Part shown: positions 8,387 through 11,886 of the stretch, one piece after another
Numbering within the stretch: the first letter of the stretch is position 1
Layout: every line of letters begins with the position of its first letter
Assembly: GCA_016933155.1 (NCBI GenBank)
Contig: JAFGBM010000005.1
Location: 186,001-250,000, forward strand
Reading direction: 5' to 3'
Source: Demequinaceae bacterium
GTDB taxonomy: Bacteria; Actinomycetota; Actinomycetes; Actinomycetales; Demequinaceae
DNA length: 64,000 nucleotides
Made by a program: the position numbers and the translations under genes
Notes under the pieces: generated by a model
Database searches by the model: none
Told to the model about the DNA's origin: nothing
What the model saw: only the letters and a program-made list of their open reading frames with translations

Positions 8387-10024
8387 CTAGGCCGTCGCGC
8401 TCACGTTCGGAGACGGCGACGGCGAGGGCGAAGGCGTCGGCGATGGCTCGGGCTCGGCCGGGGGCTCGCCGACCTGATCGTGCACCACCCAGATGGCGAC
8501 GAACTGGGTCGATTCGGGGTTCGAAGGGGCGACGACGATGGACAGACCGGCCGGGGGGATGTACTCACCGGCGCGGAAGGCGGGGAGGATGGGGTCGAAC
8601 TCTGAGAGTTCACCGATGATCGACATCGCCCGCCTCCACTCCTCGATCATCTCCGGCGTCGCTTCGAACTCGGGATCCTCGATCATCCGCTCGAACGTGC
8701 TGTCTCCGATGATCCGGGTGCTGAAGGTAATGGCCAATTCCTCCCCGGGTGCGAGGATGACGGTGTCATTGGACGCCACGGCGATGAAGTCCAGCGAGGG
8801 GGCATTCAGGGAGGATCCGGTCAGGTAGATCTGGGTGTCGCGCGAAGACTGGATATACGACAGTGCCCCCCAGGGCAATTCGAAGTACAGGCCGATCGAG
8901 TCGCGAAGGATGGCGATCGAATGGTCGCCCGTATTGGTTAGAGTCACGAGCGCTCGGACACTGGTCCGTCCAGACGTGCCGGTGATCGGGACGATCGTGG
9001 CCGATACGGATGCGGCCTCCGTCTGGCGTTGCTTGCAGGTGCCCATCAGGACATTCATCTCGAGAGAGTTGCGATCGCTGCCGAAGTCGTCGCTGGTGAC
9101 GGGAATGCCGCCGTCGTCGACGACGCCGTTCGGATCCCAGGGTGCGCCCTCGCAGACGAGGAGCCTCTGGGCGCCAGTGTCGGTATACCAGGATTCGGAG
9201 TCGGCCAGCAGATTGTCGCTCGCCAGGACTCCCATCCCGTAGGGGCTGGAGGGCGACGGGGAGGGGGCGACCGCCTCGACGGATGGGACGAAGGCCTGGA
9301 CGGCGGTCCAGCCCCCGATACCCAGGGAGCCGATCGCCGACACCGTGAGGGCGGCGACGGCCCAGGCCCGTCCGCGTCGTGGCCGGGTCGCGGCCTTGAC
9401 CAAGGGCTTGGAGCCGGCGTCGCCCAAAGCCTGGCCGTATCCGGCCAAGGCCAACGAATCGACATGGGTGAAGCCGATGGAAAGAGTGTCAGTGGGGACC
9501 TCCTGGGGGACGCCTGAGTCCCCATTGCCGGGGGTCCAGCCGCCGAAGTGGAGTTGTTGCTCGGTCAGGCCCAGGTCGGAGAGCGGGCGCCCGAGCCGCT
9601 CGACGGCCGAGGAGAGGTAGCGACGGATCGTGGTCGGGAGGACGTCGAGGTCCTTGGCGATCGCGGCACAACTGAGGCCTTCATAGAACCGCATGACGAT
9701 GCAGAGCCGCTGCTGGGCGTCGAGAGCGGAGAGGGCGGTGAGGAACGGATCGGCGTCTGCTGCGGGCGCCCGGTGGGACTTGCGGTGGCCGGGCTTGCGC
9801 TTGCTCGCCTCAAGGAAGGCGGAGTACACCGCCCGACGGGCGTAGACGGTGACGTCCTCGTGGGCGGTCTTCTTGGTCGCGGCCGTGAAGGCCTTGCCGA
9901 GGCTCTCGTGAAGAAGGCTCCTGGCGGAGGGGTGCGCCCCCGTGAGGGCGAAGGCGAGGCAGTACAGTTCCCGGCCCCGTTCCCCGAGCAGGCGGTCGGC
10001 CTTGGCAGCCCAGCCCTCGGCCAT
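8387..10024 (-). CDS. ECF-like sigma factor fused to transmembrane helix and external domain
   Basis: A 545-residue fusion. Residues ~16-80 resemble sigma region 2 (RELYCLAFALTGAHPSARS onward). Residues ~95-150 are a clear sigma region 4 helix-turn-helix (LDAQQRLCIVMRFYEGLSCA, then IAKDLDVLPTTIRRYLSSA). A Gly/Pro-rich linker leads to basic RPRRGRA and one transmembrane helix (about 220-245), which gives N-in, C-out topology. The outer ~300 residues form an unassigned beta-rich domain ending in a Ser/Pro/Glu tail. GAGAGGAG precedes the ATG. No separate anti-sigma gene is adjacent. Membrane tethering suggests release by proteolysis or direct membrane-proximal activation, which is inference. Confidence 0.82.
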   Translation of the reverse strand: MAEGWAAKADRLLGERGRELYCLAFALTGAHPSARSLLHESLGKAFTAATKKTAHEDVTVYARRAVYSAFLEASKRKPGHRKSHRAPAADADPFLTALSALDAQQRLCIVMRFYEGLSCAAIAKDLDVLPTTIRRYLSSAVERLGRPLSDLGLTEQQLHFGGWTPGNGDSGVPQEVPTDTLSIGFTHVDSLALAGYGQALGDAGSKPLVKAATRPRRGRAWAVAALTVSAIGSLGIGGWTAVQAFVPSVEAVAPSPSPSSPYGMGVLASDNLLADSESWYTDTGAQRLLVCEGAPWDPNGVVDDGGIPVTSDDFGSDRNSLEMNVLMGTCKQRQTEAASVSATIVPITGTSGRTSVRALVTLTNTGDHSIAILRDSIGLYFELPWGALSYIQSSRDTQIYLTGSSLNAPSLDFIAVASNDTVILAPGEELAITFSTRIIGDSTFERMIEDPEFEATPEMIEEWRRAMSIIGELSEFDPILPAFRAGEYIPPAGLSIVVAPSNPESTQFVAIWVVHDQVGEPPAEPEPSPTPSPSPSPSPNVSATA

Positions 10025-10172
10025 CCCGACTCCTCTCGGTCCTACCCCATTCCGGCCGGGGGGCGGACGACTCCCGTCAGGTTACTCCGAAGCAGCGACT
10101 GTGGATGCCAGGCAAGATGCGGGGGGATCGTCTTGATTGCCCTATCCCAGCGCCTGTGCCAGAATGAACCCG

Positions 10173-10199
10173 ATGCACACCACGATCATTATTCCGTAG
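10173..10199 (+). CDS. cimA leader peptide MHTTIIIP
   Basis: Eight codons (Met-His-Thr-Thr-Ile-Ile-Ile-Pro, then TAG) with three consecutive Ile codons (ATC ATT ATT). ATT is a rare choice in this GC-rich genome, which makes chance occurrence less likely. The stop codon abuts the first attenuator stem. The ORF probably starts at or very near the transcription start and lacks a ribosome site. Role inferred: a ribosome stalling at the Ile codons when isoleucyl-tRNA is scarce would alter folding of the downstream terminator. Confidence 0.68.
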   Translation: MHTTIIIP

Positions 10200-10221
10200 C
10201 GCGTCGGACCCCCGACGCGCG

Positions 10222-10248
10222 ACCTCCCGTACCTTGGGGGGTTTTTTT
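10222..10248 (+). terminator. Intrinsic terminator (attenuator) upstream of cimA
   Basis: Stem ACCTCCC / GGGGGGT (one G-U pair, 7-nt loop) followed directly by seven T. It lies 42 nt before the cimA ATG and after the leader ORF, so it serves as an attenuator and not as the end of an upstream gene; the upstream gene is on the opposite strand. Confidence 0.82.
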
Positions 10249-10290
10249 GTTGGTGGGGATACGGTGGCGGAGAAGAGAGAGAAGGCGACC

Positions 10291-11886
10291 ATGGCGGTTC
10301 AGATCGAGGTCTACGACACGACGTTGCGCGACGGCGCCCAGCAGGAAGGGATGAACCTTTCTGTCGCGGACAAGATGGCGATCGCGCCCCTGCTCGACGA
10401 ACTGGGGGTCGCCGTCATCGAGGGTGGCTGGCCGGGCGCCATCCCCAAGGACACGGAGTTCTTCGCCCTCGCCCATAAGGAACTCGAGCTCACCAATGCC
10501 GTCCTCGCGGCCTTCGGCGCGACCCGCAAGGCCGGCACGACGGCGGCCAAGGATGCCCAGGTGAAGGCGCTCCTCGACTCCGAGGCCCCCATCGTCACGC
10601 TCGTCGCCAAGTCCGACATCCGTCACGTCGAGCGAGCCCTCAAGACAACCGGAGACGAGAACCTGGAGATGGTGCGTGATACGGTTTCCTACCTGGTCGG
10701 GGAGGGGCGCCGGGTGATTCTCGACGCCGAGCATTTCTTCAACGGCTACGAGGTCGATCCCGCCTACGCGCTCTCCGTCCTTCGGGCGGCGGCCGAGGCC
10801 GGGGCGGACACCATCGTTCCCTGCGACACCAACGGCGGCATGCTGCCCGACGACGTCGCCCGGATCGTCACGGAGGTGAGGGAGGCCAACCTCGGGGCCG
10901 CGATCGGGATGCACGCCCACAACGATTCCGGCTGCGCCGTCGCGAACACCATGGCCGCTGTCGCCGCGGGGGCAACCCAGGTCCAGGGCTGCATCAACGG
11001 CTACGGGGAGCGGACGGGTAACGCCGACATCATCACCGTCGCCGCCAACCTCGAGATCAAGCGGGGGGCGACCGCCCTCAGGGCCGGCGGGTTGCTGGAG
11101 GCGGCCCGCATCGCCCACGCCGTTGCCGAGATCACCAACATCGCCCCCTTCGCCCGTCAGCCGTACGTCGGGATGTCCGCCTTCGCCCACAAAGGCGGGC
11201 TTCACGCGTCGGCCATCCGCGTCGACCCCGACCTCTACCAGCACACCCGGCCCGAGTATGTGGGCAATGACATGCGCATGGTCGTCTCCGAGATGGCCGG
11301 GCGTGCCTCGATCGAGCTCAAGGGAAAGGAGTTGGGGTTCGACCTCGCCGGGCAGGCTGAACTGCTCGGCCGGGTGACCGACCGGGTCAAGACCCTCGAG
11401 GCGGAGGGCTACACCTTCGACGCCGCCGACGCGTCGTTCGAGCTCCTCCTGCTCAACGAGATGGGTCAGGCGCCCCAATACTGGACGACGGACGGCTGGC
11501 GCGTCGCGGTGGAGACCTCCCCCGAGGATCCGACGGAGGCGGCCGCCGAGGCCACCGTCACCCTGACAGCCGGGGGCACCAAGGTGGACGCGAAGGGCGC
11601 CGGGAACGGCCCGGTCAACGCCCTCGACCACGCGCTCCGGACCGCCGTCCAGGGCCTCTACCCCGAAATCGCGAAATTCGAGCTCACGGACTACAAGGTC
11701 CGAATCCTCGAGGCGAGCCACGGGACCGACGCCATCACCCGCGTCCTCATCACGACCGTGGACACCGGGACGGGCCAGACCTGGCGGACCGTCGGGGTGG
11801 GCCCCAACGTCATCGAGGCCTCGTGGGAGGCGCTGACGGAGGCGTTGACGTATGGCCTGCACCACGCGGGGGTCGAGGCGAAGTAG
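10291..11886 (+). CDS. cimA: Citramalate synthase (or homologous 2-isopropylmalate synthase-like enzyme)
   Basis: A 531-residue Claisen-type enzyme that condenses pyruvate and acetyl-CoA to (R)-citramalate and opens a threonine-independent route to 2-ketobutyrate and isoleucine. The catalytic barrel starts with YDTTLRDGAQQEGMNLS. It contains HAHNDSGCAVANTMAAV and GCINGYGERTGNAD, and the C-terminal ~130 residues form the LeuA-type regulatory dimer domain. ATG 10291, preceded by GAGAAGG, was preferred to upstream in-frame starts that would fall in the terminator. The Ile-codon attenuator in front supports an isoleucine role. LeuCD and LeuB in this window can carry out the following steps. Confidence 0.94.
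   Translation: MAVQIEVYDTTLRDGAQQEGMNLSVADKMAIAPLLDELGVAVIEGGWPGAIPKDTEFFALAHKELELTNAVLAAFGATRKAGTTAAKDAQVKALLDSEAPIVTLVAKSDIRHVERALKTTGDENLEMVRDTVSYLVGEGRRVILDAEHFFNGYEVDPAYALSVLRAAAEAGADTIVPCDTNGGMLPDDVARIVTEVREANLGAAIGMHAHNDSGCAVANTMAAVAAGATQVQGCINGYGERTGNADIITVAANLEIKRGATALRAGGLLEAARIAHAVAEITNIAPFARQPYVGMSAFAHKGGLHASAIRVDPDLYQHTRPEYVGNDMRMVVSEMAGRASIELKGKELGFDLAGQAELLGRVTDRVKTLEAEGYTFDAADASFELLLLNEMGQAPQYWTTDGWRVAVETSPEDPTEAAAEATVTLTAGGTKVDAKGAGNGPVNALDHALRTAVQGLYPEIAKFELTDYKVRILEASHGTDAITRVLITTVDTGTGQTWRTVGVGPNVIEASWEALTEALTYGLHHAGVEAK

Follow-up and report, generated by a model that had tools for sequence, protein, structure and literature searches.

A putative isoleucine-sensing leader-peptide attenuator upstream of the citramalate synthase gene cimA in the class Actinomycetes

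Our in silico analysis indicates that the citramalate synthase gene cimA of a Demequinaceae bacterium is preceded by a putative ribosome-controlled transcription attenuator that would sense the charging of isoleucine tRNA, a reading to which we assign a probability of roughly 0.85 on sequence grounds. The element is located in a stretch of 64,000 nucleotides (contig JAFGBM010000005.1, positions 186,001 to 250,000; hereafter the window), to which all coordinates of the leader given below refer. This reading draws on an ORF of end-product codons that is conserved in relatives, an intrinsic terminator between this ORF and the gene, and an RNA structure that, by prediction only, depends on the position of the ribosome. 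The original prediction had proposed a leader-peptide attenuator at this site. Its Ile-codon ORF and its terminator proved to be conserved and matched to the downstream gene throughout the class, whereas the classical type of attenuator was not borne out, since no conserved antiterminator was found.

All parts of the leader are encoded on the plus strand. A -10-like box, CAGAAT (10160-10165), lies inside TGTGCCAGAAT, a sequence of the extended -10 type; as originally described, it ends 7 nt 5' of the leader ATG. A -35-like hexamer, TTGCCC (10137-10142), is found at a distance of 17 bp and is assigned by sequence only; a strict sigma-70 consensus promoter scan made no call near the leader. The leader ORF, MHTTIIIP* (10173-10199), reads ATG (10173-10175), CAC, ACC, ACG, ATC (10185-10187), ATT (10188-10190), ATT (10191-10193), CCG and TAG (10197-10199), and the earlier description of eight codons with three adjacent Ile codons, two of them ATT, was exact to the base. 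Another ATG of this frame, at 10164, coincides in part with the -10 box, and the relatives favour 10173 as the start. The ATT codon is indeed rare here: nine genes of the window together contain 179 Ile codons, of which 16 are ATT. The 64 kb hold a single motif of three adjacent Ile codons followed by one further codon and a stop-like TRR, against 0.08 expected occurrences, and the chance doubt left by this figure is removed by the comparative conservation reported below.

The ORF ends, as predicted, at a 9-bp hairpin (stem A, 10199-10220) whose first base is the last G of the TAG stop codon; positions 10199-10207 pair with 10212-10220 around the loop ACCC. Stem A is directly abutted by the intrinsic terminator (10221-10248), in which approximately 10221-10229 pair with 10235-10243 and the U7 tract occupies 10242-10248. 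Both hairpins are supported by folding and by covariation; the minimum-energy structure contains the two of them, and the 59-nt fold has a z-score of -4.45, with 0 shuffles folding equally well. Downstream of the U tract follow GTTG (10249-10252), which is nearly invariant in the alignment of close relatives, the hexamer AGAAGG (10280-10285), by its sequence the likely Shine-Dalgarno site of cimA, and cimA itself (10291-11886; 531 aa). The cimA product matches the citramalate synthase model TIGR00977 with 604.1 bits (cutoff 450), so the hairpin with its U7 tract had rightly been placed in front of this gene. The gene upstream of the leader (8387-10024) is encoded on the minus strand and is divergent from cimA, which rules out a gene-end terminator. 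Judged by eye, the product of this divergent gene resembles a helix-turn-helix protein of the sigma-factor type that is considerably extended at its C terminus.

To describe conservation at close range, we aligned cimA leaders of Demequinaceae, Cellulomonadaceae and their relatives, 86 distinct sequences in all. The element was present in the cimA upstream region of every relative with sufficient reach, two loci ending at contig ends. All 86 leaders retain the ORF, the TAG, the stem, the terminator and one to three Ile codons (three in 42 leaders, two in 33 and one in 11); the alignment proposed as a check on the original prediction therefore came out strongly in its favour, and leaders that keep the terminator while losing the Ile codons were not seen among them. 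TAGCGC and GCGC are invariant across the aligned sequences. In the two stems, 95.2% of the alignment cells are paired, compared to at most 54.2% in slid controls, and both sides have changed in 10 of 20 column pairs; six of the ten column pairs of stem A covary, and its GCGC/GCGC core is invariant. The rare ATT makes up 74 of the 203 leader Ile codons versus 43 of 1689 in the cimA genes that follow them (Fisher 2e-47), a 22-fold enrichment in odds, with the variation between ATC and ATT being synonymous. Because a [TC]ANNNT box is positioned 5-8 nt 5' of an in-frame start in 83 of the 86 relatives, the leader ORF is probably leaderless, as had been suspected. The accompanying view that such a start is unusual did not hold, since most leader peptides of S. 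lividans are transcribed leaderless (PMC8079986). In the Actinotalea and Cellulomonas loci (L064-L081), we also observed the C-rich sequence GGCACCACCCCCGCC repeated in the 130-240 nt spacer between the terminator and cimA; these repeats are perhaps a second control element.

A covariance model built from the element was run against the genome of origin and a class-wide sample of 297 genomes. Matches were obtained in 180 of the 297, representing 84 of 115 genera, while cimA is present in 237. Element and gene occur together in 173 genomes, the element without the gene in 7, the gene without the element in 64, and neither in 53 (Fisher 2e-18). Some of the 64 genomes with cimA only are misses of the model rather than losses; when five genomes of group f37 were inspected by eye, four turned out to have the leader ORF VLSFATIIGSRRAGPQ* or one much like it, and the fifth to have the terminator. 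Other cases are real losses, namely f44 (27 small genomes, four of which were inspected, L213-L216) and L221. In the inspected f44 genomes and in L221, cimA is found directly 3' of ilvE and lacks a leader, the element having been lost as cimA joined the ilvE operon. Among 75 cimA loci sampled class-wide, 74 have kept the leader ORF. Of two credible matches in the genome of origin, the stronger lies at cimA (E = 4e-18). The other (E = 0.0025; L113 1501-1612, corresponding to G000:C7:185327-185438) is located 674 bp before the window, 5' of ilvB, and carries the leaderless-looking ORF MQENLVVVPGRADR*.

The codons of the leader follow the gene that stands behind it. In the loci we examined, the element is followed nearly always by cimA, about a dozen times by ilvB, three times by leuS, and in two loci each by a threonine ammonia-lyase-like gene or by an ORF resembling an ACT-domain protein. 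The codons near the stem are 174 Ile, 41 Val and 25 Leu in the cimA leaders (e.g., MHTTIIIP, VLHHVIIIR and MSFQMIIIGARRH), and 23 Val, 20 Leu and 9 Ile in the ilvB leaders, which carry ILVL, LVV or VVV, while the leuS leaders possess Leu codons only, in the form of LLL. The three leuS loci (L161, L162 and L163) have MRRTLLLT*-type leaders, an identical two-hairpin architecture and a CCGCGT stem. The leaders in front of the threonine ammonia-lyase-like gene (L147 and L156, f36) end in Ile-Thr (MAIT*), and the copy before the short ACT-domain-like ORF (L146 and L158, f38) is an additional one with Ile codons, with cimA and ilvB copies also being present. In each of the 74 class-wide cimA leaders that we scored, one or more Ile codons end 3-12 nt 5' of stem A, and 68 of these leaders carry two or three. 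The stop codon, in turn, ranges from -5 to +23 relative to stem A and, depending on the lineage, falls at the stem base or within the loop. The constant feature is the distance between the regulatory codons and stem A, not the position of the stop; this is in keeping with a stalled ribosome that must spare stem A and a finishing ribosome that must cover it.

These data bear on two other explanations. The tandem hairpins might be read in trans by an RNA-binding protein or an RNA polymerase factor, with the Ile peptide serving as a minor or second input; the invariant GCGC/GCGC core of stem A is of a kind often seen in protein sites, and for the LEU element of leuA the involvement of a protein was suggested by Seliverstov et al. 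(PMC1262725). Yet a protein alone explains neither that codon identity tracks the downstream gene (Ile, Val/Leu or Leu) nor that the stem A loops vary from 4 to more than 50 nt, and we regard this explanation as quite improbable. Much the least likely is a constitutive leaderless small protein, or a small RNA with its own terminator, followed by a cimA promoter further downstream. The strict promoter scan mentioned above would agree with such an arrangement, and a terminator located 5' of a gene is able to close a small transcript of its own. However, conservation covers the Ile codons and their spacing from the stem but does not extend to the rest of the peptide, and the element accompanies cimA, ilvB or leuS.

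For attenuation of cimA by a ribosome on the Ile codons, the structures of the leader were evaluated by folding with ribosome masks. The mean probability of stem A was 0.98 without a ribosome, 0.78 with a stalled ribosome and 0.00 with the ribosome at the stop codon, while that of the terminator was about 0.97 at every ribosome position; it is thus predicted that the position of the ribosome can switch stem A but not the terminator. Masked folding of 86 relatives and of 74 class-wide leaders revealed no conserved antiterminator, and mutual information on the alignment gave no consistent third helix besides the two stems. These findings make stem A the switch and imply that it is linked to termination by something other than a conserved pairing. 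In a classical trp-type attenuator, the terminator would lose its 3' arm to pairing with the loop or the 3' arm of stem A. An antiterminator of this sort has been proposed for the Corynebacterium ilvB-II leader, where it is drawn as the P1 loop with the right side of P2 (PMC10272879). The stem A loops are indeed C-rich (52% C), and in the window ACCCCC can pair with GGGGGG, reaching 0.81 when the mask extends 6-9 nt beyond the first base of the stop codon. Among the sequences printed, however, only the window itself can form this pairing, which arises at the position of the fed ribosome and hence opposite to what an antiterminator needs; the mean probability of antiterminator-type pairing is at most 0.05 over the 86 sequences and approximately 0 over the 74 class-wide leaders. 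A classical attenuator with its mutually exclusive antiterminator therefore appears unlikely to us.

We also considered known RNA and DNA elements. No relevant Rfam family was found in the leader, either at the gathering score or with E up to 5, and this includes the covariance models of the T-box riboswitch. The Corynebacterium ilvB-II motif has a similar order of P1 and P2, but the gene here is cimA and the upstream ORF ends at the base of P1. A DNA operator is ruled out by stem A loops that differ in length while the base pairs covary, and a pause hairpin, with the RNA 3' end 11-12 nt past stem A, was set aside when inspection by eye revealed no conserved pause consensus.

The Ile-sensing attenuator could operate as follows. 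Transcription would start at or beside the ATG at 10173, and a ribosome would translate the leaderless 8-codon ORF. With plentiful Ile-tRNA, the ribosome would proceed to the stop codon and mask the 5' half of stem A, with RNA polymerase terminating at 10221-10248. When Ile-tRNA is short, the ribosome would stall at the codons at 10185-10193, 5' of stem A, which would then fold and raise read-through into cimA. Three points of this scheme are inferred, namely that the ORF is translated, that the response runs in this direction, and how stem A or the stalled ribosome comes to defeat the terminator. For this last step we hypothesize a steric effect: folded stem A, almost without linkers on both sides (its gap to the terminator is 0 nt in 71 of 74 leaders by alignment and 0-3 nt in all minimum-energy folds scored), may hold the stalled ribosome against RNA polymerase and hinder the terminator hairpin. 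The broader claim of an Ile-sensing cimA attenuator is independent of this steric step. That cimA, ilvB and leuS share a class-wide, antiterminator-free mechanism, in which folded stem A fixes a short ribosome-polymerase distance and sterically blocks the terminator, is a tentative and rather doubtful extension. The Ile-sensing reading itself has against it the uniformly high terminator probability, the lack of a third helix and the observation that codon changes in the S. coelicolor ilvB leader left regulation unaffected (as cited in PMC1262725); in its favour, the branched-chain amino acid leader of M. tuberculosis ilvB1 was experimentally found to be an attenuator (PMC13236596).

Leader peptides of this type are known, with published examples at ilvB, leuA, leuS and trp. 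In actinobacteria, leader peptides with terminators have been described before ilvB, leuS and trp genes (PMC1262725, PMC8079986, PMC10272879), and the eight leader peptides listed in a 5' leader survey of S. lividans include none at cimA (PMC8079986). Our literature search for an attenuator or leader peptide of cimA or citramalate synthase, which covered mainly freely available papers, found no report, in agreement with the original prediction; as far as such a search can tell, the cimA leader adds a case with class-wide reach to a known actinobacterial kind. The threonine-independent Ile route via CimA that had been linked to it is plausible, given the equivalog match of CimA and a domain search, blind to single-domain threonine lyases, that found no Thr_dehydrat_C domain in the genome. 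If the attenuator reading is correct, the citramalate route to isoleucine would be directly controlled by Ile-tRNA charging in most of the class Actinomycetes, including a Streptomyces-looking lineage whose ilvB leader, MRTRILVLGQRVG, is one residue off the published S. lividans IlvL. The cimA, ilvB, leuS and ilvA leaders, with different codons and two hairpins in common, form a large comparative set that makes an old puzzle testable, that of actinobacterial attenuators without an antiterminator.

Compared to known systems, the leuA LEU element and the ileS T-box of Actinobacteria share with the cimA leader the phylum, the amino acid family and the use of RNA for control, but they rely on a pseudoknot or on tRNA binding and act on translation. 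With the E. coli trp-type attenuator it shares the principle that stalling of a ribosome on the leader ORF decides terminator use; it differs in its leaderless start and in having no conserved antiterminator pairing. The Streptomyces leuS attenuators (Seliverstov 2005) likewise combine a leader ORF with a terminator, and the two hairpins of the leuS loci found here are identical in arrangement, but they use Leu codons, precede a tRNA ligase gene, and have an antiterminator drawn for the Streptomyces cases. The ilvB leaders (ilvB-II, Streptomyces ilvL and M. tuberculosis ilvB1) differ from the cimA leader, which has mainly Ile codons and a stop codon usually at the base of the first hairpin, and at cimA the pairing of loop with terminator that was put forward as the ilvB-II antiterminator lacks conservation. 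The ilvB leader of C. glutamicum lacks a ribosome binding site, as reported by Morbach (2000) according to PMC10272879. Like that of cimA, the ilvB leaders possess a short, often leaderless ORF of branched-chain codons, a first hairpin right after the regulatory codons, a terminator with a U tract and a branched-chain gene, and the covariance model based on cimA recovered the ilvB leader of the same genome.
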